Below are positions 1,722 through 64,000 of a DNA stretch of 64,000 nucleotides, in pieces. Each line of letters starts with the position of its first letter. Within the stretch, counting starts at the first letter, position 1. This DNA comes from Nereocystis luetkeana (taxonomy: Eukaryota; Sar; Phaeophyceae; Laminariales; Laminariaceae): assembly GCA_031213475.1 (NCBI GenBank), contig JARUPZ010000005.1, forward strand, positions 10,611,260-10,675,259. The letters are read 5' to 3'. A program made the translations under genes and the position numbers. The notes under the pieces are model-generated. The model had not been told where the DNA came from and searched no databases. It saw only the letters and a list, made by a program, of their open reading frames with translations.

Positions 1722-1893
1722 GTTCATTTGCTCCAGCATCTCCTGGTACTTGGGAAACATTTTGGAGGATCGGATGGACTCGAGGAGGACCTCGACGGAC
1801 TCCTTCGTGGCGGCGGACACCCCTCCCGCCAACGTCTGTGCGACTCCCCCGGCTAAATTTGCTACGGGAGTGTCGACCTCAAGCTTAGCCAGC
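1722..1893 (-). CDS. Gene A exon 4
   Basis: A 172-bp exon lies between the acceptor TTTGCCAG and the donor AAC|GTAAGA. Its first base completes the Val codon left in phase 2 by exon 3, then 57 codons follow ([16 protein letters not shown]... to YQEMLEQMN). The amphipathic, acidic C-terminal half is compatible with the helices before the I helix of a CYP74-like P450. No gene B counterpart is visible because the window ends first. The acceptor is the best of several possible AGs. Confidence 0.6.
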
Positions 1894-4800
1894 CTGGCAA
1901 ACATGTCCCAGACACACAGTGTGGGGAAGGGGGTGAGCAAGGGGATGAGAGACACATCCCTTCTAAATATGGATAGGCCAAGAAGTGGGTAGCATGGGAG
2001 CATCCACTAAATAGGGAAAATATAAAATGTTGCTCGGGAACCTCGTTTGGGTTTTGTTCGAAAAACAAACGCAACAACAGCTGAAGGGACTCGCGCGGCC
2101 GGTTTCCGCCGAGGTCCACGGCCCGGGAGCACGCCGGCGCTGGTTGTTATCGCTCGGTCTTCGCGTAATTGTTGGTCCACTTTTCGTCAATCTGTCGTCT
2201 CTTATCTTTCTCGGTCTGCACTACCGTTGAAGGCGCAATATATACTCAGATTTTGAGCGTTTTTTCCCCAAAATCGTTTGGAGACAGAATACCTTTTGGG
2301 TGAGGGGTTCGGCCCCTAAAACGTGACAGTCGGACAATGGTCAAGGACCCTCTTCGAAATCACGGTTCAAAAGGCTTTTCGTTTGATATTTCATCGAAAC
2401 GAGGTTTGGCATGCGTTTTATGTGGATCTTCAAATAGCGAAAACTATTTCGTAGCATTTCGTTGAACGTTTCGGTATTAGGCACGTGGCTTTTTGAGAGA
2501 GTCTTGAAATCGTGAAAACATAGCGTTTCCAGTTTAATATTTTCGAAGTGGACTTCGTGGGACTGCCGTCCCGTTTTGGGGAAATTTTGCTTGATATTTG
2601 AGTGATTAGTCGCGAAAACGGGACTGCGGTTCTAAAAGGGTCTCGGTCTTGAAACGGGGAAGACGCAGCGGAGCAAAAAAAAGCATTTCGATTCAGTTTA
2701 CAATGAAAGATTCTCAACTGATAAAACACACGCAATAAGAAAACAGTTTGGCCGAAGTAAACATACTTGGACAACCCGCAACGGGTACGACTGCTAACAT
2801 ATTGTATATATATGTCCAATTATCATGTTTGCCTAAAAAAAGCAAACGTTTTCTAGTGACCGTTGGAAAGACCCTTGTACCAGGCGATGTCGTACACGGG
2901 CGGAGGTTGACTTCCCACATTCGTTTTTCAGTGGTACGTAAAGTGTCTATCTGACTTGTATCGCGACCCCAGCGATCAACGCAAGTGAATGTGTCTTTTC
3001 GTTTCTGTTCCCCTCTCTTTGGTGTATCTCATCGAGTTCCCATTGAGAACAAAAAACGGGGTGCGGACAACATCCACGGGACCACCACCTTCATCGACAA
3101 CAATCGCGACATCAGTGCACACTCGGCCTAGGAACCCCAGCACGCGAGAATTGAGCATGGACATGAGGGCAGCAGGCCATCAGGTAGTATCTGCGCGGCC
3201 TAAACACGGCACAACTCAGCTATACAACATCACTTAACGTTACATTTACATCATGCCGTGCACAACGCCGCGAACAGTACACCAAAGCCTATCCTAACCT
3301 AACCCAACCTCACTAAACGTAGCCCAGTACAAACCGACCCAACCCAATACAACGAAGACCCCAGAAATTACAATTGTACACGACGCTCACACGCTGGCAT
3401 CGGATGGGTTGACCGCAATAAAGTCCTTGAAGGGCGGGAGGGGCTGGCCACCCTCCTCACCTGTCCCGAGCACCCACTCAAGCATGAACCCAGACGTCTG
3501 CTTAACGAATGTATCGTATACGGTGGTGTATTCTCCCAAACCTGTCGTAAACGCGAAGAGCGAGGTATGTGTACAGGCATTGAAGCAGTTGTTCTGGTAA
3601 ACGCAGGAAGACAGGTAAAGAGAGAGATGTAGACCACACCTTCGCCAAACGCTTTATGAAAATGTTAGGCGCCAGCGAAAAGACACGCAGACATAGTTTT
3701 TCATGGGTTATGGTATCGACGGGCGATCGCGTAACATTATGCTCGAGTGATACCTTGATCCTCTACTGACCGCAGTATATGTGTGACGATGTAGGGTATG
3801 CAACCCATAGCGAGTAACACTTTTTTAGCGTGTTGGCGTATTTCCTTGTGGCTATCGTAACACACGTTAAAGGGATAACGTACACGGTCAGTCAAACGTT
3901 AACCTTGTCTTGCTGTGTTAGCGACATCAGCCCGCATCGAAGACAGCAACGTGAAGTTTTATCGGCGTTCTTACTTGCTACCGTAACACCCTTTAGACGG
4001 ACAACGCACACGGCCAAAAAAACGCGTACATAACAGTATGTGAAACAATTTCCTGTGTAGATTTGTTGGCTCGTACACAATTGACATATTGATACAATTT
4101 GGGAGATGACGTACAGCCCCGATCTAACATGAAGAATACTTTACTCTGTGTTAGCTCGTATCGGCAAGTGTGCATATTACGTTCAAGATAGATAACGTAC
4201 TGTATTTTAGATGGAAAACGTAGTGGCGGGGTTTCCACAGAAAATGAGGCATTTGTTTCGCGGGGATTCATCTTGAATATCCCCTTGTCTGGGGTTTCAA
4301 AATATGAAGGTTATTACGTACGGCGACTGGCGTGTGTACCAGCTCGTAGCTGATGTGTACGCCTAGACACGACTGCCGATGGCCGGCAATACGCAGTCAA
4401 AATGTTCGAGGCAAACAGGTAGCCACTATCAGGTGACTTGTACGCTAAGCTTCAAATGCAAGAGAAGAAGGTGGTGTGGTGAGACCCCAAGCCAGTGTTG
4501 ATTGATTTGCTTATCTGGAAGCTGATCATGGTGAGCAAAAGTAGAGTGCATACTCAAAAGGGGAGGTGGTGCGCGTGTGCGCTCGCAACAAAGGACGACC
4601 CTTACATTTCGGTCAACACGAAAACCTAAATATGGGAATATACCCCTGTATTTCGTTCACAAAAAAACAACGACGAGAACCCCCAGATTTACTGCGAGAA
4701 ACAATTTATCTTGGGGTACACATCCATGACCCCCGTGTTGCCTATCTATGTAGTTATATTCCAACCAGGACTAAAACTATGTTACCGGTCCCGGAGGGAT

Positions 4801-7800
4801 ACTGAAGATATCCTTTCCGTTATTTACGAAAATTAGCAAGTACTAAATGTGTTGTCTGCCGTAGACTATGTACGTACGTACCACAGCAGTAGATCCATGG
4901 TACTACTTGTCGCTGGGCCTTGATTATGTGCGTACGTGTGCAGAGCAGTACATGTGTAAAAAGACAGCTGCTGCTATCCTACTATAACTCAGACTGGAAA
5001 AACTGTCTGTTGTACCTAGAATGCGTAAATGTATGCCAGATGACGTAAGCGCAAGCGTGTAACGAATATGATGGCTACTGACAAGTATCATCTCTAGTAT
5101 AGGTGTTTTTAGCGGGCATGTCATACAATTGTCATGTGTTAGTAGGGCTGGTTAACAAGGTAACGTTATGTTGGCATGTTACGCATGACACACGTCCTAA
5201 GGGTAACACTACGTTAGTGTGCTATGTCGAACGTTTCGTCGACACTAACATTACGTTATCGTGTCAGTAAATATGTGGATATCGATCTGGGCACGATATA
5301 GTGATAACGTAGATGTTTGGCCAAGGCCTACCACTGTCTTACAGTGTCTGCTAAAGAACTGATCGCGGCATAGCATAATGTTACTGCACCCGAGCTGGAC
5401 GAGATTGAGCAGCAAGAAAACGTCAAGGCGTGTTTACATTCGTGTGTTACCAGTTAACACTGTATTCCCGCGTTACCGTGATCGTTCCTCCAGTGCTAAC
5501 GCTCTGTTTAGTACATTACTTTGTCAGGCCTCATAACGTGGACAAGTGTTTTTCCGGGTGTGAAGTTATCCGAGGTGCGAATAAATATGTGTACAGGCAT
5601 GAACACATGTTTTGGCGTAATGGGAGGTAAACACCTAGCGATAGATTAATATATAAATGTATATTATTCAATGCTGAGAGATGAAATGATAGAGGGGGCG
5701 AGCGAGATAACATAAAGATTTCTTTTGCAAAAGGCTTTTGCAAAATGGGGGTGACGAGTGGGTGAAAGGGGCAACAAGATGGGACCTTAAAAATAACCAG
5801 AGAACGTGCACGGTGTACGCTGGCCGGTATCCGTTCTATATATTTGGTAGAGGAGTCGGGTACCATATTTTTGACTACCCATGAAATTCCCCTCGGTGAG
5901 GTCACTGTTTCCCTGAGCCAGCAGCAAAAAAAAAATGGAACCAAAAGTGGATTCGCTTGGAGCCTGCACTATGAAATATCAAAATAGCGGGGGAGTCGTC
6001 ATTCCGAGAATATAGTTGGGTTCCCTATCGCTTCTTTCCACTTGGTAGACGAGGCGGTCATCTTGGATGATCGGGTTTATAGACCATGGGTGCGGGACGG
6101 CGAGATCGTTATTTCCGCACAGGATGGACGATCGTGTAACGCAGTGCGTATATAGCAAAGCACTCGCGAAGCAGATGCACAGTGTATCCGGCGCTGTCGT
6201 ACACAAAACGAAGACCATATTCAATGCAGGTTACGCTGCCATCCACAAAATGAAGACCGGAGGTGCAAGGTGTCAAAAATGTCTGCATGACATGAGGTTC
6301 TTACAAAGATGCAGCCCATCCATCAAGCGCGACTCGCCGAACATCTCACGGCGCTCGGCTTCTAGTACACACGCATTGTTTCCCTTGTCGATGAAAACCC
6401 GACGTGCTCTAACCAGGTATTGCAAGGGTGCCATGGCCTCCAAGGTCACACGACTACCGACATCAATGACGTTGAGTACGAACCCCCGCCTTCAGCCCGT
6501 TTGCCTTCCCCTCTCACCGTCCGCCCGAAGCTCCTTGTAGAAGTTGTCGGAGGCGTGGATGAGCGCCGTCTCTGTGACTCCAAGCCTCTCTCTCAAGGTT
6601 GCGATGGTGTACTCTCGAATGGCCGAGTGGGACTCCCCTATGTTGGTAATAAGCGCCGGCATCGTGTCATCACAGTAGTGCTCGGTGAACTTCAGCGGCC
6701 CAAAGTACTGCCCATCCTGGAAATATACGAACCAGGAAAATATTACGGGGTTTTCAAGCGAGTTCAAGGATGAAGTGATCGGGGGGTTTATGATGGAGTA
6801 GGATGGGCGTTCAGACGACGAAATAAGTAAATTAAAAAAGCTACCGTGGGTGACCGTGAATACTTCCTTCCTGTACGTTTCCGCGTGTTAGGCATCAACG
6901 CGTTGGTTTTATCAGCCTGCTTCTGACGTGCAGCCCATCGCGCTGGCCACGAGCTCTTCCAAACAATCACAACCTCGCAGCCAGCAGCCTAGAACCTTTG
7001 GATTCGATCGTCGGAGGCGGCTTCTATCACTTCCCCGGAGAATCAGACAACTCCATGCCAACGGCACACGGTGCGCTTCATGTTGTAGCCTACAAACAAT
7101 CTTCAATTTTCAAAGGCTCTGATTCATAGATGTCGCGTAGTCGGTGATATATGTGCTCTCTTCGGGTAAATGTCCCGAATAAGGCATCTACCAAGCCGGC
7201 AGCATTCGCTAACTGGAGTTCGTGATGTTCGTTTATGTGCTCAACTCAACACACAAGACCACAAACATACTTGGCGCCTCACGCCACTAGTCCGACTACA
7301 GTACAAGACAACAGCATTGGTTATGCATTTTACATTCATTTCAATACCTCAAACCCTGGACGATCGTCCCAGCCGGGGAATCGATCGGGAACAGGAGTAT
7401 CATGTCGCAACACTACGAAGAATAACGAACGACAACAGCGCTGGACTACTCGTAGGTAGTGCTATGCAGCCATAAACAACACGAGTCGAGTAACGTAAAC
7501 GTGACCTTCTATTGGGTAGCCCATAAAATCTGCAACAGATTGGTAGTGCCGGCCCGGTGGTAAGGAACGTCAAGTTTGCGGCCAGGCTCACGTCGTCTTT
7601 GGCGTGCGTCCCGGCACAAGCTACAGCAGTCGCCTGTACTGATGTTTCTTATGTTGCTCGCTACCACGAGGCCGCATCTCGCGCGTAAAGTCTGAACGCG
7701 ACGGCCGGAGCCAAACAGCACGATTGATGCCATACGACTACTTTGGTGTGGCGATACCACCTCGAGTACGCCGATCAACTGACAGTGTGCCGGATGTCGC

Positions 7801-10800
7801 AGGCCTAGCTGTAGTCGCTGCACCCACCACGTGCTACATCCACCATGAGCTGCGGCAACAAACAACTACAAAACCACCACACCACACTGTGCGTGCGAAC
7901 AGTTGAACGGTCGATAACCGTTAAATTTTATTCACAGCCTTTCCGGCCAGTCGTACTACGGGGAGGTGGTGACTCGGCCGCTTTTTCATGTGTGTCCTCG
8001 TCCGGAACGACCTCTTTTCGTTTGCGTGGATGGCCATCGAAATCGGCTTCTTATACCACTGTTTCTCTCCCGCTATACGTTTTGTTGCCGAGTTTCAGCT
8101 GTCACTTTTAACCTGAATTCCATGATATGTTTCCCAACGTTTAAGCTTGTCTTCCTTTACAGGTTTGGTTTCGAAACCGGTGACGCCCCCCCCCCCCCCC
8201 CCCCCCCGCCTCCTCGTAAGTTGTCGTTTAGTCCAGTAAAGAGTCGATACTGTGCATAGGACAGGTATATAATTACCTAACATTAAACGATCATCGGAGA
8301 TATACAGTGCGAGAGAGGAAAGACAAACCGATAATACGTAACGGGAGAGCCGATTCGTACTTTGCGCAAGGCAGCTGGTGGTCTGTACGGTTCCCGAAGC
8401 TATCGAGAGTAGGTCGGAACGGGCGGTCGTGCTTCCACGTGTAAAACCCCCCCGGAATTTATCGCTCTAAAGATAGCTGCAAGTATCTCCTTGACTACGG
8501 GTATACAGCGCCTGATAGCTGATAGCTGATAGGTCACGCAAGAAGCGATATTACATATATAAACGCATGAAGACGGCAAATCATTGGTTTCGGTTCGAAC
8601 ACTACGAAAAATCGCGGTCCACCGAAAACCAAACACGACGTGGAACAACGCAATGCCCAAACGAAGCCATCGCGCCCAAATATAGCAAGAGTCAGTCTAG
8701 TAATTCTATTATATAGCACGTTGTGTATCCAAGTCGCTGAAAGCTCACACTCCAACAAACAGCCCAGCAAATTACAAACATGATATATCTCAACGACTAC
8801 TCCGAAATACCTTACGACATCGCCAAGATGACACGACAGAACGAGATGCCATCGTACTGATCACGACAGGCACGACAAGTACGTACACATGCTTGAAACG
8901 AGAAGAGACACAAAACAAAACCAAGGACAAATAACAACTTGTGACATGCGACTAGTACATCAGGTAGCAACAAAAAGAAGGATCGAACTCACTGCAACAA
9001 CTACAGAGGGATTTTCGCTTGTCGTCCACACAGGCAAAGTGTTCTTGAAAATCGTCGCGTCCTGCCTCAGCACCTATTGCTAGACCGAGGAACTACTCCC
9101 TGAGGAACAGTGCGGCTTCCGTCTCGCACGATCAACGATTAATATGTTGTTGGTCGTGCGCCGGTTGCAAGAGCTCGGACGACAGAGGAAAATCCCCTTA
9201 TACGTGTGCTTGATCGATCTGCAGAAAGCGTGCGACTCTGTCGACCGAGAGCTGGTATTTTTTTTTAATTTAGTTATTTTTCTCATCCCGTTCATTATCT
9301 TCGCACATCTTCTTTTCTCTCTCCTTCCAACTCGTAACTCAGATCCGGGGTCACATAGCAGGCTCTTCTCCCCCCTTCTGTTATGGAAGGTACTCACACG
9401 CTTTGGCGTACCAACCAAGATGCTGAGAATTATCCGTAATTTCCACGATGGCATGCGGGCTCGCGTGTGTACTGATGACGTCGAGCTCTCGGAATGGTTT
9501 GATGTCTCGCAGGGGCTGCGGCAAAGCTGTGTACGATCACCGTTACTGTTCAACGTGTTCTTCGCTGCTGCGTTACACGTCGTACTGGTACGCTTCAGCC
9601 AAGACGAACCCATTGTAAGGGATTTGGTCCAACTCAGTGAAGCTGGAGTAGTTCGAACAGGGAAGGAGGAGCCATTGGCGTGCGTGCGGAGGTCTGTATG
9701 GGGCATGTTGTACGCCGATGATGCAGGAATTGTCTCGAAGTCGGCTGAAGGGCTCGCAAAAATGATGACAGTCATCGTGACTGTCTTCGAAGCAGCAGGC
9801 CTCACGGTGTCGGAAAAGAAGACTGAGACAATGGTCCTACAAACACTAGACCGGACAACCCTCGCACCACCGCTCGTCATCGAAGCGGCAGGTCAGAGGT
9901 ATAAGCAGACGACCCAGTGCTTATACCTAGGCGGCGTTATCCACGAAAACGCTGCGCTCTCGCTCGAAATCGACCGACGGATCCGCCTCATGCGAGCATG
10001 CCTCAAACGGTTCAGCCCGGAGTTGTATGATAGGACGACCGCTCCCCTTAGCCTTAAAGTCCGAATGCTGAAGGCCGAGGTGATTGAGACCCTGCTGTAC
10101 GGGTGTGTGACGTGGACCCCCAGAGCGGAACACTTTGCCAAACTTCGAACGGCTCACCACCAAGTCCTGCTGCGAGTCATTGGCTTCCAGCGCCGACTTC
10201 ATACTGACCATGTCACCCTCTCGTACGCGAAGGCCCCCTGACACGTTGCGAGAGCATCGAAACGACCATTCGTAAACGGCGGCTCTTCTTTGCGGGGGGC
10301 GTGGCACGGCAAAGCAAGGAGCGATTACCCAGTCGGGTAATGTTCGGGACGATAACTGGTGGGGAGAACCCGAGACCAGGCGGACAGTGTAAGACTTGGC
10401 ATAAATGCATAGTCGAAGACCTTAGGGAGTTCCGAGCCACCGAAGGGTCAACGGAAGTTGCCCCCTTGGTGTTTGGAGTTGAGACCGCGTTGTGGTCCAC
10501 TGCAGCCAAAAAGGCGGGGAAGTGGTACCGGGGGATCCTTGACGCAGCCGAACGGTTCATGGTGAGGTGGCACGAGGCTGAGGCTGAGATGAGTAGGCAG
10601 CGCCGCGCATCCGCCGTGGATGGTGCCCAAGGGAACGGGGGGGGAAGGGGCAACAGGAGAAGTGGCAGAAAGCCCGACCGAGGGAATGCGGAGAGGGGGG
10701 GGAACAGGAGGGGTAGAAGGGAAACGTCGGTAGACGAAAGTAGGAAGGAGATGGCAGACAGAGTAGCAAGGCACCAAGTCGACTAGGAAGTAGAACATGA

Positions 10801-25800: not shown

Positions 25801-26699
25801 TGACCACTTGAGCCACCGGGGCGACCTACAACACATGGAATACCCGAAAATATGAGCAGTGACAACACGCGTACATGGAAAATAATGTTTCAACCAAGTA
25901 TTAACAACACGGAATGCAAATGACGCAAGGAGATGAGATACGCTTATTTTGATATTTACTACCTGGTATAAATAATTGAAACGAAGACTATCCACAGAAA
26001 GACAGATAGCTGCTGCACGGACGAGGCAGCACGAAGAAAACGAACCAAATAAATGGTGGGTAGGAGACAGGAAACAAAGGGATGGACAACGCAAAATCAA
26101 CGGTTGACACCTGGTACGAGGGTGAGTTAATAAGACAATACCACAACCCAGTAAAATGCGGCACCGCGGTGTACGTACCCAACTCCCTGGGCACGTACGT
26201 GCACAGCTTTCGGCCCGCCCTGGACCCTGTAACGCTTCGAGAGCGACGCCCAACTCACCTGTCGATCAAGAACGGTATCCGGCTGTTCGAAGAACCACTT
26301 GCCGCTCGCGTGATCGGTGAGACCGATGCAGGCCAACCCGGGGTGCATCTTGAAGACAGAAGCCCCCTCGACGGCTTCGCTGCACTTCTTAAAATATGCT
26401 CCTGGCGTGGAGATCCACTCAGCGGCATCGGTGAGTGGCTTCAGCGAGTACCAAGAATAGTGCGTGCCCTGCGGCTCGAGGATGTTTTCATGATTGTCGG
26501 GGCTGGCGGCCATCTCGGTTCGCGTCGGACCCTGCGCCTTTTGTGCTGCTAGTGAAGAAGCAGAAGACACGAGCCAGGGAGATGGAGGAAAAGAAGAAGT
26601 GGCCGGAGGATAAGGCAGGAGGGTACGGGGTGGTAAGAAGCCCAGTGTGGGATGGAGTGTCGTGATTAACACTGCACGAGAAAGGCGTCTGTCCATCAT
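1722..26699 (-). CDS. Gene A: CYP74-like cytochrome P450, partial, 4 exons (continues past left edge)
   Basis: Four exons on the minus strand (26699-26259, 6716-6518, 3541-3391, 1893-1722) join with matching phases 0, 1 and 2 at canonical GT-AG sites, giving about 321 residues. Residues 1-70 are basic and Ser/Ala-rich like an organelle transit peptide. Residues about 78-147 carry [12 protein letters not shown] and [12 protein letters not shown]; the spacing resembles the part of plant allene oxide synthases that ends in a KSFPVLFD-type motif. Exon 2 ([15 protein letters not shown]) fits the following SEPKH..LK helix region, exon 3 the helix region after it, and exon 4 the segment before the I helix. 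CYP74 enzymes rearrange fatty-acid hydroperoxides and need no reductase. The I helix and the haem cysteine loop would lie left of position 1, so the family call rests on the N-terminal two thirds. The exon chain is much surer than the product name. Confidence 0.6.
1894..3390 (-). other. Intron 3 of gene A
   Basis: This is 1497 bp between donor CGT|GTGAGC and acceptor TTTGCCAG. It contains a degenerate copy of the TTAA MITE (about 2556-2645) and, near 3290-3320, a short CCTAACC-rich stretch. An open minus-strand stretch at 2976-3164 has no supporting splice sites. Confidence 0.45.
2556..2645. mobile_element. TTAA MITE, degenerate
   Basis: The inner arms GTCCCGTTTTGGGG and AACGGGACTGCGGTTCTA are recognisable; the outer left end is eroded. 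Confidence 0.5.
3391..3541 (-). CDS. Gene A exon 3
   Basis: A 151-bp exon begins after the acceptor CGACAG. Its first two bases complete the Gly codon split by intron 2, then it reads [18 protein letters not shown] and ends NPSDAS. The donor is CGT|GTGAGC, phase 2; the TGA seen just after is inside the donor and is not a stop of the gene. The same exon begins at 63944 in gene B with one amino-acid change (D to E) in the visible 19 residues. Confidence 0.75.
3542..6517 (-). other. Intron 2 of gene A with conserved tracts
   Basis: This is 2976 bp against 916 bp in gene B. The part at 5540-6517 aligns with gene B 63028-63840. The extra stretch, about 3640-5540, has no recognised gene; it is rich in GTTAAC- and ACGTTA-like words and looks like an inserted element whose ends I could not define. 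At 5979-6110 the words DDRLVYQVE and MTTP recur in both copies. Confidence 0.5.
6518..6716 (-). CDS. Gene A exon 2
   Basis: A 199-bp exon follows the acceptor TTCGTATATTTCCAG and ends at GCGGACG|GTGAGA (phase 1). It encodes 66 residues starting [10 protein letters not shown] and ending FYKELRAD. The protein is identical to gene B exon 2: eight bases differ and all are silent. It lies 19.5 kb downstream of exon 1. The phase-0 start matches the phase-0 end of exon 1. Confidence 0.8.
8180..8210 (+). repeat. C homopolymer
   Basis: A run of about 22 C near 8187-8208, followed by GCCTCCTCG. A similar run occurs in the gene B intron near 63867. Confidence 0.8.
8300..8860 (-). repeat. Repeat R5, copy i (gene A intron 1)
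   Basis: On the minus strand this shares GTGGAAGCACGAC, TTGTTGGAGTGTGAG and repeated GATAGCTGATAG words with copies at 14440-14935, 58190-58560 and 61470-61930. Copies i and iv sit at matching places in the two inverted genes. The family is not recognised. Confidence 0.5.
9144..10241 (+). pseudogene. LINE-A reverse transcriptase fragment with in-frame SINE insertion
   Basis: The reading frame has 365 codons. Residues about 36-80 come from a SINE-1 tail and interrupt the RT between SVDRELV and [13 protein letters not shown]. Other copies read straight across this point (14160-14190 minus, 40720-40760 plus). The YADD box lies at about residues 190-193. The insert keeps the frame open, which is a coincidence and not evidence of function. 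Confidence 0.75.
9255..9390 (-). mobile_element. SINE-1, 5'-truncated, inside LINE-A copy a
   Basis: The 3' portion only is present, read on the minus strand: the GATCTGAGTTACGAG and GAAGATGTGCGAAGATAATG words and the A-rich end (a T run on the plus strand) are shared with the full copies. Confidence 0.75.
11145..12470. repeat. Palindromic LINE-linked repeats R4, two in tandem between LINE-A copies a and b
   Basis: Arms at 11245-11480 and 11670-11890 are inverted copies (GTCGTGCCTGTCGTATCTAG and complement). They enclose a core with GAATCGGCACGGACACTG and GATGTCGACGGGTAGAAAG. A second, more worn unit fills 11900-12470. On both outer sides the arms run directly into LINE-A 3' ends (copy a plus, copy b minus). 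Confidence 0.6.
12470..14440 (-). mobile_element. LINE-A copy b (RT and C-terminal domain)
   Basis: This is on the minus strand: RT pieces at 14244-13921 ([30 protein letters not shown]) and 13934-13347 ([33 protein letters not shown]), then the tail to about 12770. The YADD segment is broken. With copy a it forms a tail-to-tail inverted pair around R4. Confidence 0.75.
14440..14935 (+). repeat. Repeat R5, copy ii
   Basis: This shares GGACTCTTGGAG, GCGCGCTGTCTTCG and GCTATCAGCC words in the same order with 61470-61930. Confidence 0.5.
15005..15180 (+). repeat. R4 core fragment
   Basis: CATTAAACCGTT, CCGTCGACATCCAGCACAAC and CACAAAGCTACGCCACAGAG match the cores at 11.5 and 24.6 kb in inverted orientation. 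A SINE-1 follows directly. Confidence 0.6.
15186..15523 (-). mobile_element. SINE-1, full length
   Basis: A tRNA-derived head on the minus strand (GGTCGCCCCGGTGGTTCAAG, with A-box-like TGGTTCAAGTGG and B box GGGTTCGAGCCCC) is followed by a body of about 260 bp and an A-rich 3' end. Confidence 0.85.
15797..15917. mobile_element. TA MITE, worn, with tandem CCAGGTA inserts
   Basis: The left end ATTACGGGGGACAATAG and a worn right end are visible. The left arm contains GGTACCAGGTACCAGG, the tandem form of the TACCWGGTA motif. Confidence 0.55.
16290..16372 (-). mobile_element. SINE-2 tRNA-like head fragment
   Basis: On the minus strand CCCCGGTGGCTCGGTAGGTG and CGTGGGTTCGAGG match the head of the SINE-2 copy at 51694. 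Confidence 0.5.
16404..16419. repeat. Overlapping double TACCWGGTA
   Basis: TACCTGGTACCAGGTA is two 9-mers sharing one TA, as expected if the 7-bp insertion occurred twice in a row. Confidence 0.6.
16585..17080. repeat. R4 fragment with a TA MITE inside
   Basis: The R4 core (TTCACATTAAACCGT) at 16610-16720 and an R4 arm (ATACGACAGGCAC) from about 16912 are separated by the TA MITE at 16750-16858. CCTGGTA interrupts the core at 16632. Confidence 0.5.
16750..16858. mobile_element. TA MITE, complete
   Basis: Inverted ends TATTACGGGGG / CCCCCGTAATA; 109 bp including the flanking TA pair. Confidence 0.8.
17149..17246. mobile_element. TTAA MITE in LINE-A copy c
   Basis: TTAACCCTTTTAGAACCGC at the left and ACTAAAAGGGTTAA at the right, bounded by TTAA on both sides; nearly palindromic. 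Confidence 0.8.
17519..17615. mobile_element. TTAA MITE in LINE-A copy c
   Basis: TTAACCCTTTTAGAACCGCA to GACTGCGGTTCTAAAAGG then GTTAA; 97 bp. This is the second member of the family in the same LINE. Confidence 0.85.
18197..18458. repeat. Left LTR
   Basis: 262 bp, TG...CA ends, the same as the right copy at 21968-22229. Confidence 0.85.
18640..19080. repeat. GCC/CCG-rich low-complexity tract inside the LTR element
   Basis: Short GAA and CCG repeats with long open frames on both strands. The composition explains the frames, and no protein family is recognised. Confidence 0.5.
20140..20215 (+). repeat. tRNA-like head inside the LTR element
   Basis: GAGTGGTCTAGCAGGTAG (A-box-like) and GGGGGTTCGAATC (B box) lie about 45 bp apart. 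No cloverleaf with a clear anticodon arm can be drawn, so it is more likely SINE-derived than a tRNA gene. Confidence 0.4.
21968..22229. repeat. Right LTR
   Basis: 262 bp, preceded by a purine tract and followed by the CCTTA duplication. Confidence 0.85.
22230..22350 (+). mobile_element. LINE-A copy c, right part
   Basis: CCTTATGAAAGGAGTCG continues the 3' region broken at 18196. The matching stretch of copy a is near 10950-11070. Confidence 0.7.
22348..22427. mobile_element. TTAA MITE, left-truncated
   Basis: GTCCCGTTTTGGGG to CAAAGAGGTTAA; the outer left arm is missing. Confidence 0.65.
22430..23695 (+). mobile_element. Possible DNA transposon with TGCCTT subterminal repeats
   Basis: Several TGCCTT/AAGGCA words cluster at 22470-22575 and again, mostly inverted, at 23545-23680. 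They enclose an open frame. AAAGGGC-type words near both ends could be terminal repeats but are imperfect. No target duplication was found. Confidence 0.35.
22841..23431 (+). CDS. Unrecognised open reading frame, 196 aa
   Basis: This is one of the longest frames outside recognised repeats. It has a possible hydrophobic segment near residues 36-52 ([14 protein letters not shown]), a basic stretch [15 protein letters not shown] in the middle and a His-rich end ([10 protein letters not shown]). No known domain or catalytic motif is seen. It lies between the two TGCCTT clusters in intron 1 of gene A, on the opposite strand to that gene. It may be a decayed transposon protein or chance. Confidence 0.25.
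   Translation: MRAYTGGNGHVCNNGSTAAAGCARSASRGAVVDGQVFVGGVFFGLVTVLSTRLPHNQVRSYSYDTYQVSYNDSVSPDVMLTGERQTQIRALRKKREQKRLTNRHVYWDGLSQASADNIQTPFSRRCPPTINRGNLLRDGFGFKSIIFVAAPNSAVVADHDCQLEQIVRDSCLLRAKHGVDHREHVFHHHRLLARNP
23697..24060 (+). mobile_element. LINE-A copy d (3' end only)
   Basis: This matches copy a from GGCCGACTAGGAAGTAGAAC through TACCAGGCGGATTAGCAGGG and runs into an R4 unit, the same order as in copies a, b and f. Confidence 0.75.
24060..25200. repeat. R4 palindromic unit followed by two extra cores
   Basis: Arms at 24060-24560 and about 24700-24890 are inverted copies. The core between them (24560-24700) is in opposite orientation to that at 11.5 kb. Two further cores follow at 24898-25020 and 25070-25200. 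A TA MITE splits the left arm. Confidence 0.6.
24171..24279. mobile_element. TA MITE with a recognisable empty site
   Basis: 109 bp with intact GGGGGACC ends. The related R4 arm near 11245 reads ACAAGCAGTGG uninterrupted where this copy has ACAAG-TA...TA-GTGG. Confidence 0.85.
25384..25826 (-). mobile_element. SINE-1 split by a TTAA MITE
   Basis: A full SINE-1 on the minus strand. Its head sequence GGTTAACCAC is interrupted exactly at TTAA by the MITE at 25706-25803. Confidence 0.85.
25706..25803. mobile_element. TTAA MITE inside SINE-1
   Basis: TTAA at the left and TTGA at the right enclose CGTTTTAGGACCCCAGTCCC and its inverted partner. This confirms the TTAA target. Confidence 0.85.
26259..26699 (-). 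CDS. Gene A exon 1
   Basis: This exon encodes 147 codons. The start is the first of two adjacent ATGs, and the paralogue in gene B also begins with Met-Met at the same place. It ends ...DTVLDRQ, directly followed by the strong donor CAG|GTGAGT, phase 0. Over the last 70 codons it is about 84% identical to gene B exon 1 in protein. In the final 24 codons about eight bases differ and all are third-position silent changes, so selection has acted on the protein. Confidence 0.75.
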
Positions 26700-27029
26700 G
26701 ATTGGTAAGCTGAGTCAGTTACCAGTGAGACGGGGTTGTGGTAATGTTGATGCCTCAGGAGGAAGCGGGGACAGCAGTGCTTAAATTAGGGTTTCACGAG
26801 ATGATAATCGCGATATGTACTTGTACTCGTGATCGCGAAAAAACACTCCGCGATCACGATACCCAATATGGTACATTCAAAATGCAAAAAACCCTCCGAA
26901 ACCCACTACAGGAAATACTACGGGGGCAGGGCAGGGAATCCCGATGCGAATTTTTGGTCAAAACAATAGCCAAAATAGGGGATACCCGATGGATTTGTCG
27001 CCAAAATAGGGTACCACATGTTCCAGTAA

Positions 27030-27270
27030 CCTCGAACGCCCCAGGACGCCATCTCATTGGTCAACGCTTCGCCGCCACCCGATGCTGGCCTCGTTTGCGG
27101 CGGGTAGACCCGATTTTGCCTACTTACCCCCCAAGAGGTACCCGATTAATGTACCCACCTGTCCGAAAATGGCCAGACTATTTCACCACAACGACCAATC
27201 ACCACCTCGGAGTTCATGCCTCTCATCCCGACGAAGGCGGGCAAGAACCACCTGCGTGATGTCCATGATT
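27030..27270 (+). repeat. Repeat R6, copy 1
   Basis: This shares CACCCG, ACCCGATTT, GTACCCG and GATGTCCATGATT words in order with 57060-57310 (minus) and, more weakly, 53640-53830. Function unknown. Confidence 0.5.
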
Positions 27271-27779
27271 AGGTTCAGTTCTAGACAACTTCGTCCGCTT
27301 TGTTTCTGTTGTAGCGCTGAAACAACCACACACAGACCACCGCTCTCCTTCCCTGTCGCCTCCTCTCCAGGACCAAATTTAGCACAGCCCTCTCTCTCCT
27401 CTTCTCCCGAACCAAAAGGAATCGAAAAGCAGTTTAAGCAAAGCAGTAGTAGTGACGGAGCATTGGCGACGCCACCAAATTCGCAACGAGTATGATGTTC
27501 TCCGGACACAAATAATGGGCATTGCTATGCAGCATCTCTCCTAAGTTCTGGTCACGCGCTGGAATTCTAATGTAAGACAGGGTGTGTCCCACGCTATTTT
27601 CAGTAGTACCTAAAACATATTTTCGTTTTTTTTCGTCCAGCCCTCGAGCCTGAAATTATCAGCCAGCAGTCAAGTTCGTAAGGGTAATTCTTGTGGGGTG
27701 GTTGTAGTCATCACGCGTCCGGGATTTTCGTTCCGTTCTCTGGGCGGTATGTAATATCCAACGGGAGATCATGTATCAG

Positions 27780-27945
27780 CGTGACGGGACGGTAAGCTAC
27801 AACGATATGACAGGGGCTATTTGGACGGGACGGGACGGTAAGTGACGATAGGGATATAACTTGTCGATGGAACGTGACTACAAGACCATTTGGACGTCGA
27901 TTTTACCGTTCCGTCCCGTCCCGTTGCTACCGTCTTTCCCGCTGC
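27780..27945. repeat. GGGACGG inverted repeat
   Basis: TTGGACGGGACGGGACGGTA at 27820-27840 faces TACCGTTCCGTCCCGTCCCG at 27904-27925, which could form a hairpin. Confidence 0.6.
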
Positions 27946-29849
27946 GTCAAAATACCGTGCTAAGTCATGATTATGCCGTATTATTGGTGAGGCACCTTCC
28001 TTGCCGCGATTTCCAAAGCTGGGGGTGGATGTGGGGTGACGGTCTGTATACAGTACGCGACAACACTTGAAAACGTCCTGTCTTAACCCAGTCTGGCGTC
28101 TTGTTTCTGCTCCAATTTCAGCTGAACTGTTTACATCCAAATTATTATCGGGCGAAGAGGTGCAAACCGCCAAATTCTTAAAGTGAAATATTTTATTTTG
28201 CAAAGTCGGTCAACGCGACTGTTGTTTTTCTTGAGCGGTTAGCGACCTTAACGTGAGCTGTTTTTCAGCATTTTTCCCAGTATTTTCCCGAACGTTCGGA
28301 TATTTCCCGATAATTTTTCGGGAAAAGCCGAAACACTCCGACCCCGAAAAATGACGTCTTGACGTTTTTAGGGGTTTTGGAGGAAATTTAGGTACAAGGC
28401 CGTAGAGGATCGGGCAGCCCCACAGCTCGAGCTGTGCCACCACTCGCGGGCGCACAGAGCTGACAGGGGTCGTTCCTAAGGTCACTCGCAAGTCATGGCC
28501 GAACGCAGAAGGCGCAATATATAGCTTTCTGGGCTCTCGTGGCCGAGTTCACAAGGTGATCGCACCGAGGTGGCCGACCGACTGAGCTCGGTGACAGCAA
28601 TAATAGCTGAGACTTTGTCGCTTTCGGCAAGCGTTGGGCGTTGTTCCGTGACGAGTTGGTGATGGATTTCACTCCCCAAGGCACCGACACCTGCCTACGA
28701 GTCAGGCCGATGACAGTGGGGCCACCGGACGCATGGGTTCCGCGAGGGCAGCTAATGTAGGGACGGTTCTGTGCAGGGTGGACGATTTTTTGCCTAGCTA
28801 ACTGAGGCACTTACTCGATAAGGTTGAACCCTCGCTGAATTTGGTGAAATGCCGAAATTTGAGGAAAAAACGAAATACAATACGTGTCAAGAATGTTTTT
28901 TTTTCCCACAGGATATTTATTAGAAAAGGATGCTCTTCAGGACTGCAGGCATCAAAGTTCATAATGGCCAGCTTCGATGACTTTGCTGTAGCACTTTTAA
29001 TAGTCATACAGAGGGGTTACAGCCACTCAATCGACCTGGTCTACGTTACGCACGTTGGGCGTCAATGCTCTGCCCCTGCTACTGACTGCCGTTTTTTTTC
29101 CGCCTGCTTGTGAATCTCCCAGCTGACTGTTCTGCCCGACCACTCTGGCTGCCCCCCCCGTCTGCACTTTTGTCGTTACGCTCTAGCGAAACCCACGCAC
29201 CCACCGCCACGCCTGTTTCCGTCCTGTATGCACATAACGGTAGCTTCATGCTCAGCACGCTTTTGTCTTCTTCAAGATGCACACTGTAGCCGTACACTTC
29301 TTTCGTGCCCTCTTAACTCTTGCGAGTGATCAGGCCACCAAACCACGCCATGCTTAGTCTGACTCACAGAACACACCACGTTTGCGAGAGTTGTCTAGAG
29401 CAGGTGGTCTCGACTCTTGAAGATTTAGATATATCCGGAATTACCAACCCGATTGCCTCATCCTCCGGTGACATGTCGTCTTCGTCGTCCAGCAGACACA
29501 GCGGTTCTTTCCCGTTGTCAGAGGCATCTGCATGTCATACTATGAGAGCGTAGGGGAAAACGAATGTGAAAAGGAGCGTCGTATTTCACATTGGTCAAGG
29601 GTCAAACTCTGGGACTATTCCCGAGAAGAGATACACACACAGTACAACACGTACTGTAAGTCACAAGTCAGGACACGTCTTGTCAAGTACCCGCTAAACA
29701 CTGGTCATACTGTATCTACTTACCTGTCCAGTAAACATCTTAAAGACCTGAAGCAAACGAGACTAGATGCAACAAAACAAAAACGTAAGACCCCTATATT
29801 ACCACCTTTTTCCAAGCTGCCCTTGTTTTTCTCCTCTCTGTCCTCGTCC

Positions 29850-30115
29850 TCGTCACCACAAGCCAGTGCTCATCCAACTCATCGCTGTCCTCGTCCTCGT
29901 CCCCGTCCCCACTACCCTCGTCCTGCTCCCCTTCTCCTTACTTATGCTCCTCGCCCCCTGACCCATCCGCTTCTTCCCCACTCTCGTCCCCAGCCCCCCC
30001 CCCCCCCCGCCCTTCCCGCGGCCATCCCCGTCACTTTCTCCATCAGCTCCTTGCCCGTCGCTTTCCTCCCCACTGCTCCCACCCCCCCCCACGCACACAC
30101 TCCCCCATACCACCT
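29850..30115. repeat. C/T-rich low-complexity tract
   Basis: CTCGTCC-type repeats and two C runs. The long frames here are compositional. Confidence 0.6.
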
Positions 30116-30181
30116 CGTCGTCGCGGCAGGGCGTTTGTCCCTCCTTCTGGAGACATAGATAAGGGGTGGTGCAGCAGGTAC

Positions 30182-30298
30182 GTGTTGCAGAGCCCCCCAC
30201 AACTTCCACGCAGTCGCTCTGTTGTCGAGTATCTCGGTGACCTTAGCGTCCACGTCTGAGGCATGCTCTTCTTCAGAAATGCCGCCAATGCACCTCAG
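30182..30298 (-). CDS. Exon-like segment, unrecognised
   Basis: The minus strand has acceptor TGTCGTTGCAG and donor CAACAC|GTACCT around exactly 39 codons (LRCIGGISEEEHASDVDA... to WKLWGALQH), acidic and helix-like. It is symmetric (phase 0 to 0). It stands alone between the two P450 genes with no neighbouring exon found, so it may be a fragment or chance. Confidence 0.3.
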
Positions 30299-37540: not shown

Positions 37541-37879
37541 CTAACTTGCAATTGGTGGCGAACGACGAGATTCGTCTGTCATTATCGCTACGAATATAAC
37601 GTGTACATGGTCCAACCGCTGTACTTCATCATCGCCGTCCGTACGCGCGTTGGCATCCTTCAGTACAAACAGACACTCTTTCGTCGTGATCTTCTCCACC
37701 AAGTCTTCCAGCTTCTGCCAGAAAATATGTTCCAGTTCGGTGTCTTTGGTACAATCAGTTGGAGCATACGCAACGACGAATCTGATTGCCTCCCATTTAC
37801 CAGCCAGCTCAAAGCGCATACTCGTAGACACAAGCCGTTCGCCAACGAACTGGTGAGTGTACACATACTCACTGCGCAA
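37541..37879 (-). pseudogene. LINE-A endonuclease domain fragment
   Basis: Residues SMRFELAGKW, FVVAYAPTDCTKD and ECLFVLKDANART match the spacing of APE-type LINE endonucleases (the N-Asp and Asn-Ala sites). The frame runs out at 37541. Confidence 0.65.
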
Positions 37880-38023
37880 CGATTCCTCGACAGCAAGACC
37901 TGCTTCGTACAGGCCTTGTCTGGCAGCTGTTTTGTCGGTGCTGATTCGTCAATCATAGAGAAACACGCAAGTTCTGTGTCACACTTTTACTCCTACTACT
38001 TGGAAAGTGGCCCGCGTGCCTAC

Positions 38024-38125
38024 TATTACGGGGGACCATATCTAATAGGACCAAATATTGTGAGTAAAAATGGGGGGTTAAACAGGTTTTTGTGTGTGTG
38101 TGCCATAGGTTCTATTTTATAATGG
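38024..38125. mobile_element. TA MITE, right end lost
   Basis: TATTACGGGGGACCATATCT at the left; the right arm ends at TAATGGT. Confidence 0.6.
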
Positions 38126-38164
38126 TAAAAAGACCATCTTCGTACGTCGACTATCCCAAATTGC

Positions 38165-38343
38165 ATAAAAGATAAATAGTGAGAGCAGAAACCGCAAGAC
38201 AAAGTGCGAGTTCTCAACATTCGAAAGAAGTAGACAAGCAGCGCGATAAAGAGGAGGGTACGTACCGGGGGGGGACCTGGGACCATGTTCTGTCCAAACG
38301 ATCGCCGACGGTTAAACTTATTACAAGGTACCAGTTGAAGAGG
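38165..38343 (+). mobile_element. SINE-2-like 3' fragment, worn
   Basis: CGTACCGGGGGGGGACCTGG and GATCGCCGACGGTTAAAC parallel 49900-50000 and 51890-51970. Confidence 0.4.
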
Positions 38344-38593
38344 CGTTCTACGATAGAGGTTCATCCTATAAATAGTTTTTCTGAGGCCCCTTACTCAAGG
38401 AGCTCCACACCTCACCCAAAAACTGGCGTCAGCAAAAATCAAATTACGCCCCGATGAATAATCCCATCGTCCAAGCATACCAAAGTGCCATTTTTCGAAA
38501 CGAGATTGGTATTCCGACGATTTTAGGGTTAAAAAAACAACCCGATATTCAGAAAACAAATGAACGGAAATGTGGTACCTCTGTCGTAGAACG
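38344..38593. mobile_element. CGTTCTACGATAGAGGT MITE, complete
   Basis: Terminal repeats CGTTCTACGATAGAGGT and ACCTCTGTCGTAGAACG; 250 bp, no coding. Confidence 0.75.
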
Positions 38594-38696
38594 TGTCTGA
38601 AAGCTACAGTAGTAAGAACCCAAGTAGTGATGAAGCGAAAGTGATAAGAATAGAGTAAAGAATCCACGTACGACAATGTTAGGCAGAAAGGCTCCT

Positions 38697-38925
38697 TTTT
38701 ATCGGAGAGCGTTTTTTTCCATAATTTAAAAAATTCGGAAATGGTTGGAAATATGTAGCGTAATATACGGAGGCGTTTTGTCACTCTTCGTGAAATTCTG
38801 CACAAGCAAAAAAAAAACATCGTCAAATTTCACACATTTATAAAAAAAACAAGAAAATATGGAATGTTGAAAAATTGCGGCACCAAATGTCGAAAATATG
38901 GGAAAACACTCTCCGATAAGAATGA
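38697..38925. mobile_element. ATCGGAGAG MITE
   Basis: TTATCGGAGAGCGTTTTTTT to AACACTCTCCGATAAGAA, with internal words shared with 32.7-33.2 kb in inverted order. Confidence 0.7.
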
Positions 38926-38934
38926 TCCCACAAG

Positions 38935-39130
38935 CGGAGTCGACTCCGCAAAGCCATGTCATCATACCGAAGAGGACAGACACGATATACACATTTTATG
39001 AAAATCCGATAGAATATAAACGGAAATAACAAGCGGGAAGAAAATAGAATAGCCAATATATAGAAACTGAATGTGGCCACCCGCAAGGGGATGATGTGGC
39101 AGACACTTGAAAGCCATCTCGTTGTTTGAT
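38935..39130 (-). repeat. R4 arm fragment
   Basis: GACAGACACGATATACACAT and GGCAGACACTTGAAAGCCA match the R4 arm on the minus strand. Confidence 0.5.
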
Positions 39131-39239
39131 GCGAGGTCCAGCGGTGATACAGTAGCAATGGGCAACTTGTATGTTTTACATGTAGATTGAGATACTGAAC
39201 TTAATCTCCGATGCATGAAACACCGAACTCGTATCCAGT

Positions 39240-42200
39240 AGGTGTTTGCTTCGTACCGTACCTATCTCTTGGATGCCGACGCGTTACCCGGGCAGAAGAT
39301 GGACGGGTGCATGGATGATGCGAGTAGAGTGCTTGGAGCATATACGGATGTGATGTTCGTAACGATCATGGCAAACGACCTTTGTCAGAAAATTATCTCT
39401 CACCAACAAGGGTGGAATATCGCATGCGCTAAACGGCCCCAGCCCGAACAACCGTAAGCGGAAGGACCCCACCGGAACCCGTCATCCCCATCGGCCTAGC
39501 GTACATGACGTTCACGTCATGCTACAGTCTCCCCCCCCTATCTAACGCCGACTCAGACCACAAGTTTCTTGTGTATCGAACTCCGACTCAGTGGTCACTT
39601 TGCACCCGACAGACAAACGCAAAGGGCGACGAAAAGCCGTGAGTTCGACAGGCAGCTTATTAAATCCGATGAAAAGCGTCGTCCTGCGTCAGTGAGTAAT
39701 CGCTATGGTCCTTCCCATGCTCAGCCAGATTATCCAGCCCCGAAATACGTCTGGAATGGTTGACTTTTTCGTATTACGGATGCGGTTGAATAAGAGGTGC
39801 CACCCCCTCCACGTCGCCACCACAGATATGGATGTTGTGAGTCTGCCAAACTCGTGGCCGTACTCACATTAGAATGGACAGCGAGGGCGGATGCACGACA
39901 ATTCTTGCGGGGATAGAAGCGAGTGGAAGCCACTGAGATCTGTATAGGGCGAACCTTCAGAAGGCGCTTGCCGCAAGACTGCATGCGTACGTCAAATAGT
40001 ACTTCACCAAAACAGAACGACTCATAACGAACAACGACCAGAAGGGATCGGATTAGAGCCTGAAAAGTACGGTGGGATTGGAAGGTACTATAGCGTGGAG
40101 GGAGCAGTTCAATAGGGACGTGGATGGCACGCTGTTGCGGGATAAGGTGCGAGTTCGTGGACGATGGGCGGGGCTCCACCCCTACGTTTGAACACGAAAT
40201 CGATCCCAGGATCATCGACCTCGTGCCCCCGCGACCGCTTCAACTGTCGCTTGAAGATGACGGTCCATGGACGAGATGACGGGAGCATATAGTCGAAGGG
40301 CGAGTTGGAAAGCTGTTGGGCCAGAATGTCTCCCGGCTGAATTCATAAACTTCGACCACCTCCCATCCGTCCAGTACTTTCACAAACCCTTGCCAATGTG
40401 TGGGTAGCAGGAGAAGCCCCCTTGTAATGAGAGGATGCGATCATCAGGGTCCTTCACACACAGAAAGACAGAGCTGATTGCAACAACTACAGAAGAGGGA
40501 CCTCGCTTGTTGCCCACGCAAGCAGATAAGTTAAAAATAGTCGCGTCACGCCCCAGCAAGTACTGCAGGACGGCGGGAATACTCCCGGAGAAACAGTACT
40601 GCTTCCGCCTCGCTCGATGAAAGATTGGTGTGTTGTTCGTCGTGCGCCGATTGCGAGCGCTCGGACGGCAGAGGAACCCCCCCCTGTATTTGTGCTAGAT
40701 CGATCTGCAGAAAGCGTACGACTCTGTTGACGGACAGCTGTCATGGGAGTTCCTCACACACGCTCCGGCGTACCAGCCGAGATGCTTACAACCATCCGCG
40801 CATTCCACGGAGGCACGCGGGCTCGCGTGCTTACGGGTGACGGCGAGCACTCGGAAATGTTTGACGGCACGCAGGTGCTGCGGCAAGGCTAAGTGTTATC
40901 ACCGTTACTATTCAACGTGTTCTTCGCAGCTGTATTACACGCCGTACTAGTACCCTTCAGCGAAGACGATGCCGTCGTCAGGTATTTGGTCTAATTCAGT
41001 GATTAAGGAGTTGTCGGAATAGAGGAGCAGGAGCCGGTGGCGTGCGTGCACAGGGCGGTATGGGGCATGTTGTACGGCGATGATGCAGGAGTTGTCTCGA
41101 TGTCGGCTGAAGGGCTAGCGAAAATGATGACAATCATCGTGACTGTCTTCGAAGCAGCAGGCCTCACACTATTCAAAAGGAAGACGGAGACAACATTTCT
41201 ACTCTACGATCACCAGACCAGACAACCCTCGCCCCACCTCTTGACATCGGATCAGCTGGCTATGGGTATGAACAGACGGCCCAGGTTATATACCTAGGAG
41301 GCGAAATCCTCGAAAACGCTTACCTCTCAATCGGAATCGATCGAGGGATCCGTCTCATGCGAGCACGCCTCAAACGGTTCGTCCCGGAGTTGTATGATCG
41401 GATGACCACCCCCTTACAAAAACAAAACGCGTGCTGAAGGCCGAGGTGATGGATACCCTGCTGTACGGGTAGGTGACCGACGACACCCAGAGCGGGACAC
41501 TTTGCCAAGCTTCTAACGGCCCACCCCAAAATCCTCGTGCGAGGCATTGGCTTTCATCGCCCACTTTGCACTGACCGCGCTACCCTTTCGTTCGCGAAGA
41601 CCCTCAAAATAACACAATTGCGAAGGCATCGAAACCATTGTACGTACTGGACGCCTCTTATTTGCGAACGCGGTGCCACGGGAAAGTAAGGAGCGATCGC
41701 CAAGTTAAGTATTTTTCGGGACGACGGCCGGTGGGGAGACCGCGAGACTTGGCGGACAGTTCACGACCTGGCATAGATGCTCAGTCGAAGCCTTTACAAA
41801 GCTCCGAGCCACCACAGTGTCTGCGGAACACTCCCTCTTGGTGTTTGGAATTAATTGAGACCGCGCTGTGGTTAACTGCAGCGAATAGGACGGAGAAGTG
41901 GTCTCGGGGGGTGCTCGAAGTTAGCCGAACGGTTCATGGTGAGGTCGCACAAGGACGAGGCTGAGCTTAGTAGGCAACGCTGCGCATCCACTGTGGGTTG
42001 TGTCCAAAGGACTGTAGGGAGGAGGGGGAGCAGGAGGAGTGGAAGAAATCCCGACCAAGGAAATGCGGGTAAGGGGGAGAACAGCAAGCGAAGAAGGTAA
42101 ACTGCGGTGGACGAAAGTAGGAAGGAGGTGGCAGACAGGTTCGCAAGGCACCAGGGCGACTAGTATGTAGAACATATGTATGCTACTTGTGCCGTCAACC

Positions 42201-42470
42201 CGTGCAGCTGGTTCGAACGTTGTTGTCCTTCGTCTTCATTCCTTGTTTCTTGCGCTTGATCCTCTGTGATTTTCATTTTACGTCTTTCTCTTCCTTTCTT
42301 CTATTATCAAGCTTTATCCAAAGAGCCGTGTGGCGTGGGCGAATGACGAGCCTACATTGCTTGTTTCGTATTGTCTGACGCTGAGTGGCAGGGCAAAATT
42401 GACATACCTCGGACGCAGACGACAGGCAGGGAAGCAAGGTATCAGGTGGACTAGGAGGGAAAACGTGGCT
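39240..42470 (+). mobile_element. LINE-A copy f (endonuclease end to C-terminus)
   Basis: The plus strand carries the end of the endonuclease domain (39240-39640), a linker, RT from about 40455 (LVAHAS-like, FRLAR, YGDDAGVV at about 41079) and a C-terminus to about 42160. It is decayed, and the YADD box has become YGDD. With copy e it forms a head-to-head pair in the intergenic region. Confidence 0.75.
41037..41297 (+). pseudogene. LINE-A RT active-site fragment (copy f)
   Basis: VWGMLYGDDAGVVSMSAEGL then EAAGLTLFKRKTETTFL. The second residue of the YADD box is changed (A to G). Confidence 0.65.
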
Positions 42471-42485
42471 ATGCTACTCGTGACC

Positions 42486-42744
42486 CGTTCTACGATAGAG
42501 GTAGCAGATTACCGCTATTTTGTTTCTGAAAGACGGAGTTCCTCGACCCCAAATCGTCGGAATACCAATCTTGATTTAAAAAAACAAGTTTGGTAGACTC
42601 GGGCCATGTGGGGATTATTCGCCGCGATGCAATTTGATTTTTGCTGAAGTTAGTTTTCGGGTGAGGTATGGAGCTCCTAAAGCGAGGAGCCTCAGAAATT
42701 TTATGGTGAATCTCAGTCAGTCGTGGAACACCTCTCGTATCGAA
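42486..42744. mobile_element. CGTTCTACGATAGAGGT MITE at the LINE-A/R4 junction
   Basis: Left end CGTTCTACGATAGAGGT; right end ACACCTCTCGTATCG. It sits exactly between the LINE-A tail (CTATGCTACTCGTG) and R4. Confidence 0.7.
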
Positions 42745-43230
42745 GACTGCTGCGGCTACCGAGACGGTGCTTTTCGTTTTAGATTGCCTGTTATTTTCCC
42801 TTTGTTCTCGTTCTCAGTCTGTGTACCAGCAGTGAGTGGTGTTTTATCGGCTTCTTTTTCATCAGCTCGTTATGGTATAGGGTCTGGAGCATCGCCTGCG
42901 GGGGGGCACGAGCGTGTTGTTTTTTACATTTACTTTTTTTTTTTTTTTTCTTTTTTGTCGGTTGTCTTCTTTGCTTTCCTTTTTTCTTTGTTTTCTTTCG
43001 TTTCCCTATTTTTTAGAATGCGTATGATATGCCTGTCGAATCCAGTATGATGCTGTTCGTACTGCATACCTAATGGGCAACGTAGTATTTCTTTTGTCGT
43101 AGTTTCGTGGCCACATAACTTGTATCTCTCTACTCGTAGGATTGAAGAATCGGCACGGACACTGATTGTGCTGGATGTCGACGGGTAAAATCACCGGTTT
43201 AGTATGAAGAACACACACACGGCTTGTGTA
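42744..43230 (+). repeat. R4 unit after LINE-A copy f
   Basis: TTGCCTGTTATTTTCCCTTT, the arm (ATGATATGCCTGTCG) and the core (GAATCGGCACGGACACTG), ending in ACACACAC. Confidence 0.6.
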
Positions 43231-43656
43231 GGATGTCGACGGGCGACAAGAAGGTATTCTCATGACGTGAAGTAATACATGTTACATTCTACCAGGTAGA
43301 GGACCACAAACGTTCGATGCGATAAATAAAAAATCGAAGTTCGATTTGTCGATGTTTCGAAAGTTTCGATATGGTATTCAACGGGCCATATCCATCGGCC
43401 CTAGTAATAACATCGTATACAAGTTCGGACTGTGTTTATCCTGCAGGAGAGCGTATCAAACACGTAGTACCCCCCACAGCTTGATGCAGGCGGTCGAAGG
43501 ACCACGGACAGCTCGCACAACGTGAGTTTTGACGAAATCCTCGATCTCGCAGCTGTAGTATTGTTTCCCCCATTTCGTCACGCCCCATCTTGCCCCATCT
43601 TGAAACACCAGCACCCCAACCCAGGCCTACTAACTTATCACAACTCCCCAAGTATC

Positions 43657-64000
<20,344 letters not shown>

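Follow-up and report, generated by a model that had tools for sequence, protein, structure and literature searches.

According to the available sections of PMC10813956, CYP74 enzymes split lipoxygenase-made hydroperoxides homolytically, and the epoxyallylic radical is then converted to an epoxyalcohol, an allene oxide, a hemiacetal or a divinyl ether. Brown algae produce unusual cyclic and epoxide oxylipins, and excerpts of PMC10813956, PMC10864609 and PMC12843491 describe two characterised brown-algal enzymes of the CYP74 clan, namely the epoxyalcohol synthase and the hydroperoxide bicyclase of the CYP5164 group in Ectocarpus. In the excerpt of PMC12843491, hydroperoxide bicyclase products are reported from Ectocarpales, Fucales and Laminariales. 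A duplication of a CYP5164B1-like gene has been suggested in Fucales (PMC8067260, in excerpt). The lipoxygenases of Saccharina japonica, as described in the available part of PMC5712309, belong to the same pathway and form a multi-intron family enlarged by tandem and segmental duplication; unlike the genes described here, they encode the upstream enzyme and not a P450. Given the suggested duplication in Fucales and the reported lipoxygenase expansion in kelp, growth of this P450 family is unsurprising. The excerpted literature on CYP5164, brown-algal P450 duplication and kelp oxylipins listed no CYP5164 gene cluster.

The window analysed here is a stretch of 64,000 bp (C5:10611260-10675259) of a 465-Mb assembly. 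We read it, with a probability of roughly 0.85, as holding two intact inverted sister P450 genes of the CYP74 clan, A and B, which belong to a family that has expanded locally in a large eukaryotic genome, most likely a brown-algal one to judge from the enzyme family, the genome size and the lipoxygenase copies. CYP5164B1 (EsEAS, the epoxyalcohol synthase of Ectocarpus siliculosus) resembles them as a brown-algal CYP74-clan enzyme, whereas at least eight copies are present here. CYP5164A3 (EsHPB, the hydroperoxide bicyclase of Ectocarpus siliculosus) shares the clan and the presumed lineage. PMC8124189 gives the accession APG42673.1 for CYP5164B1, and PMC10813956 gives CAB1111511.1 for EsHPB. 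Under the naming rule for CYP families, CYP5164 membership goes with over about 40% identity. With eight or more genes, two of which (A and B) are shown to be intact, the family is a natural test set for the residues that choose the product and for the growth of such clusters: its sister pair has an identical exon 2 at the protein level but unlike upstream flanks and N-termini.

Structure and intactness of the two genes

A further 20 kb was fetched beyond each window edge and the two arms were compared in translation, which gave ten conserved coding blocks per arm in identical order. Positions left of the window are given as negative numbers, counted so that 0 is the base immediately preceding the first base of the window. 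Gene A lies on the minus strand and comprises 10 exons over 39,871 bp from start to stop codon, encoding 544 aa. Gene B lies on the plus strand and comprises 10 exons over 35,003 bp, encoding 545 aa. The two proteins are 86% identical. After splicing, each reading frame runs from its start codon to its stop codon without interruption, which rules out that A and B are pseudogene fragments.

Exon 1 of gene A (26259..26699, minus strand) was read as an ORF from ATG with the donor GTGAGT; it holds the start codon and encodes the presequence and the N-terminal part. It is followed on the same strand by exon 2 (6518..6716) and exon 3 (3391..3541), both with AG/GT borders, and by exon 4 (1722..1893). 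The spliced model places exons 5-10 left of the window at -174..-25, -5411..-5307, -8135..-8085, -9386..-9261, -11470..-11349 and -13171..-13054. In gene B, exon 1 (43657..44100, plus strand) is an ORF from ATG with the donor GTGCGT, exon 2 (62829..63027) has AG/GT borders, and exon 3 covers 63944..64094. The partner of exon 4 of gene A lies outside the window at 65542-65713, and exons 5-10 of gene B follow in the spliced model at 68019-68168, 71568-71672, 72422-72472, 73094-73219, 75167-75288 and 78542-78659.

A sequence-only reading of the window had placed three exons in each gene, and all six stand at the positions and in the order claimed, with matching lengths, the same intron phases and good splice sites. 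Its last exon, 63944-64000, extends past the window edge and in fact ends at 64094, while position 1722, where its finding began, is the end of exon 4 of gene A. The genes are larger than it noted, since six more exons of each lie beyond exon 4 outside the window. It had also proposed a search for the haem-loop exons outside both edges; this check was run, and the flanks gave a candidate haem-cysteine exon in both A and B.

The exon lengths in A and B are 441 and 444 bp for exon 1, 199 and 199 bp for exon 2, and 151 and 151 bp for exon 3, and the intron phases 0, 1 and 2 are common to both genes. Exon 1 shows 77.6% nucleotide identity between A and B (arm-to-arm match E = 2e-70), and exon 3 shows 87.4%. 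Exon 2 differs at 8 of 199 nucleotides and its 66 encoded amino acids are all identical (arm-to-arm match E = 5e-54). The arm-to-arm matches are far beyond chance. Acceptors are AG in 18/18 introns of the two genes and donors are GT in 16/18; a GC donor follows exon 5 in both A (-175) and B (68169).

The first introns are long, 19,542 bp in A and 18,728 bp in B. The joining of exon 1 to exon 2 across these 19.5 and 18.7 kb appears supported because the paralogues retain the exon order. The distance between the two exons is 549 bp in paralogue H and about 1.1 kb in paralogue G.

P450 identity and relation to CYP74

The Pfam family p450 (PF00067) matched the two proteins with 42.8 and 36.3 bits, above the curated cut-off of 22.8 (E-values 3.9e-11 and 3.8e-9, residues about 350-470), and the P450 identity assigned from sequence alone therefore holds. 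An NCBIfam search gave a sole match, far below its cut-off. The best PDB match was CYP74A allene oxide synthase, at 1.8e-8 with one protein and 2.6e-10 with a two-gene profile, which bears out the proposed likeness to CYP74. 2rch and 2rcm ranked first and 3dam third; prostacyclin synthase and BM3-type enzymes came after CYP74A. The plant CYP74A enzymes (PDB 2rch, 3dam) are thus the best solved-structure matches from the K-helix to the meander, but the significant match spans only about residues 369-464, about 95 residues, and residues 73-355 of B had no PDB match even at E ≤ 10.

The available text of PMC8124189 lists as CYP74 features an Asn in the I-helix groove, the ERR triad, the PPV domain, a nine-residue insertion in the haem domain and the Cys ligand. 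The I-helix core MFNTGFQS is identical in all eight paralogues, and its Asn (MFN) was matched by eye to VMFNAV of CYP440A18 as given there. The core also fits FxxxFxS, which the excerpted text of PMC4108028 highlights as the I-helix motif of the CYP74-like Ectocarpus protein Esi0060_0078, so that A and B share its F and S. The ExxR of the K-helix is EILR or EVLR in 8/8 paralogues, and the downstream Arg lies in NPRRF in A and B. At the PPV position, B has APPFFF and A has APAFFF. A candidate haem Cys was found within WGC in exon 9 (C489 in B, C488 in A), placed by its position beyond any alignment. For the nine-residue insertion, the CYP74 alignment stops before the haem loop, and a loop search of the PDB gave no helpful match. 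The haem loop of A and B looks long. The I-helix and ExxR motifs are consistent with the CYP74 clan.

The Pfam match is to the generic p450 family only, and many BM3-type monooxygenases also match the region from K-helix to meander, so A and B could be pictured as ordinary O2- and reductase-dependent monooxygenases outside the CYP74 clan. An acidic-Thr pair in the I-helix is the monooxygenase signature; A and B have FNTGFQS in its place. CYP74A was also the top match in both full-length PDB searches, and the presumably long haem loop points the same way. We consider the monooxygenase explanation highly improbable and retain the assignment to the CYP74 clan.

The paralogue family and the history of the pair

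At least eight such genes were found in the genome, six of them within about 0.4 Mb on C5 and two on other contigs. Searches with three portions of the protein (N-terminal, middle and C-terminal) listed 24, 32 and 25 matches, respectively, and the counts are lower bounds. These searches located copies C (C5 10.537-10.571 Mb), D (C5 10.721-10.734 Mb), E (C5 10.760-10.779 Mb), F (C5 10.906-10.934 Mb) and H (C28 3.455-3.465 Mb) on the minus strand and copy G (C17 1.619-1.631 Mb) on the plus strand. B is the sole plus-strand gene among the six on C5. The exon order is kept across the eight paralogues. For C-H, the sequence of exons 1-6 was read, apart from that of exon 4 in G, with several ends incomplete. 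Exons 8-10 of C-H, taken from the match table alone, were in order in 6/6, with some stop codons within the matched stretch. Neither A nor B was among the 19 matches listed in a generic p450 family search of the genome, which indicates that such a first-pass search overlooks these genes.

A lone exon-8-like match was observed apart from the eight genes at C18:10182839-10182937 (76% over 33 aa), and it is possibly a ninth copy or a remnant. The GC donor after exon 5 occurs in 7/8 paralogues (A, B, C, D, E, G and H), with GT in F only; the intron is of the GC-AG type, old and inherited. In copy C, exon 1 is likewise followed by a GC donor. The N-terminus of A, B, D and F carries a GF/AF-P pattern, which in our view resembles stramenopile plastid presequences, and these proteins may be targeted to the plastid.

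The maximum-likelihood tree of exons 1-6 grouped A with B at 100/100 (99/98 when exon 2 was omitted); D paired with E, and G with H. The sequence-only reading had described an inverted duplication that produced a gene pair. A and B are indeed inverted sisters in the tree; the pair is not isolated, but is one part of a family that numbers at least eight genes, six of them on one stretch of C5. Within such a local family, an inverted duplication and a tandem duplication followed by an inversion are indistinguishable.

The whole-gene comparison of A and B gave a dS of 0.41 and a dN of 0.079, which indicates that both proteins are under constraint. The non-coding identity was about 70% overall and 65 to 85% per block in 14 aligned blocks, chosen from 123 blastn matches and excluding intron stretches that no longer align. 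This level of identity shows that the duplication is old. A recent duplication or an assembly duplicate is ruled out by the non-coding identity together with the dS. Beyond the last exon, the arms can still be aligned as far as about 82.3 kb (right) and -16.4 kb (left), so the duplicated segment took in the 3′ flanks. On the 5′ side, the homologous block begins 3 bases before the ATG.

One tract departs from this level of divergence. It comprises most of exon 2 and 85 bp of intron 2, at 62844..63112 (plus strand) in gene B and 6433..6701 (minus strand) in gene A, and it is 98% identical over 269 bp (6/269 mismatches). Its intron part has 1/85 mismatch, whereas the mismatch rate in the remaining 9363 aligned non-coding columns is 29.7% (binomial p 3e-12). 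The tract was chosen after inspection; among separate non-coding windows of 85 columns, the runner-up has 10 mismatches. The synonymous difference in exon 2 gave a Fisher p of 0.028 on rounded site counts, which is weak evidence alone. The dS of exon 2 is 0.20, not below that of exons 8, 9 and 10 (0.22, 0.20 and 0.10), and the comparison of D with E gives 0.067 for exon 5, which shows that dS per exon is noisy. Since the dS of exon 2 is not outstanding, the argument for conversion is carried by the intron part. The tract is most simply read as the result of gene conversion acting locally between the two arms, and conversion may also have affected the 3′ end of the genes.

Selection on a shared splicing or regulatory element could likewise keep the tract around exon 2 nearly identical. 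In favour of this, A and B encode the same amino acids in exon 2, and copy F lies slightly above its shuffles against the intron tract (score 33, shuffle maximum 26; A with B scores 165). In the other 5/6 paralogues, however, the 200 bases that follow where the exon 2 alignment ends gave no match above 200 shuffles, so the 85 intronic bases have no above-shuffle counterpart there, and the contrast between 1/85 and the remaining non-coding columns also speaks against selection. We regard it as unlikely and prefer gene conversion.

The exon 2 segment presumably covers substrate-recognition site 1, which in CYP74 enzymes is the first site that determines the product. We speculate, as a doubtful extension, that conversion between the arms might keep exon 2 and this site identical, so that one reaction would be kept while the rest of the proteins and the promoters diverge. 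If this were true, the inverted array would hold the product choice constant and leave expression free to differ.

Spacer, proposed function and repeats

The spacer between the two start codons (26700..43656) measures 16,957 bp, in agreement with the head-to-head pair about 17 kb apart described from sequence alone. The further suggestion that the pair could share regulatory DNA is not clearly supported. When the 2 kb upstream of A was compared with that of B on both strands, no match reached E ≤ 1; small matches were found among other family members. A comparison of the two spacer halves gave seven matches at E ≤ 1e-3, of which the longest (32701-32933 with 38695-38928, mirror orientation) covers 239 bp at 77%. 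The match closest to a gene (31446-31487 with 43341-43382, mirror orientation) covers 42 bp at 81% and lies upstream of B by about 0.3 kb and of A by 4.7 kb. The 239-bp and 42-bp matches could be either a repeat or a remnant of the duplicated 5′ side. At least two of the seven lie in reverse-transcriptase-like pieces (34.7-35.2 and 41.4-42.0 kb), so called because they are similar to an ORF inside intron 1 of gene A (9084..10238, plus strand, stop to stop; RVT_1 1.1e-15). This ORF gave the only Pfam match among 10 window ORFs scanned, and fragments similar to it occur near 13.0-14.5, 35.0-36.3 and 40.4-42.5 kb.

A co-regulated divergent unit driven by shared regulatory DNA in the spacer would suit the head-to-head orientation of two intact genes and the seven matches between the spacer halves. 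Yet the spacer is long, the flanks are unrelated, and the shared pieces are not equally far from A and B, some of them being reverse-transcriptase-like. Two family members (G and H) are moreover solitary on other contigs. Such a unit is very unlikely on this sequence evidence.

A and B are most likely fatty-acid-hydroperoxide isomerases of the brown-algal CYP5164 kind, as predicted from the analysis above. Judged from the family, their substrate would be a fatty-acid hydroperoxide made by lipoxygenase. The haem would cleave it homolytically, without O2 or a reductase, and the radical would be rearranged to an epoxyalcohol, a bicyclic oxylipin or an allene oxide. This reaction would depend above all on the I-helix Asn and the haem Cys, and the products would serve in defence or stress signalling. 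A and B are expected to give the same or closely similar products.

Eight places in the same genome matched lipoxygenase family positions 336-395 (8/9 matches), which we take to be the metal-site region. These matches indicate that the substrate-making enzyme is present. The match on C844 scores exactly as one copy on C7, and C844 may be a duplicate contig.

The lipoxygenase matches are clustered at 2.77-3.00 Mb on C7 and 10.10-10.58 Mb on C15, with the one more on C844. This clustering is an expansion parallel to that of the P450s, in the supplier of the presumed substrate.

No structured RNA in the window was over the Rfam cut-offs. A short dispersed repeat of about 350 bp, with copies up to 97% identical, occurs in both first introns and in the spacer (15.2-15.5, 25.4-25.7, 32.1-32.4, 46.5-46.8, 47.9-48.3 and 51.3-51.7 kb). 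Intron 1 of gene B also holds an AAC triplet array at 49176-49316, with 47 copies and 96% matches.
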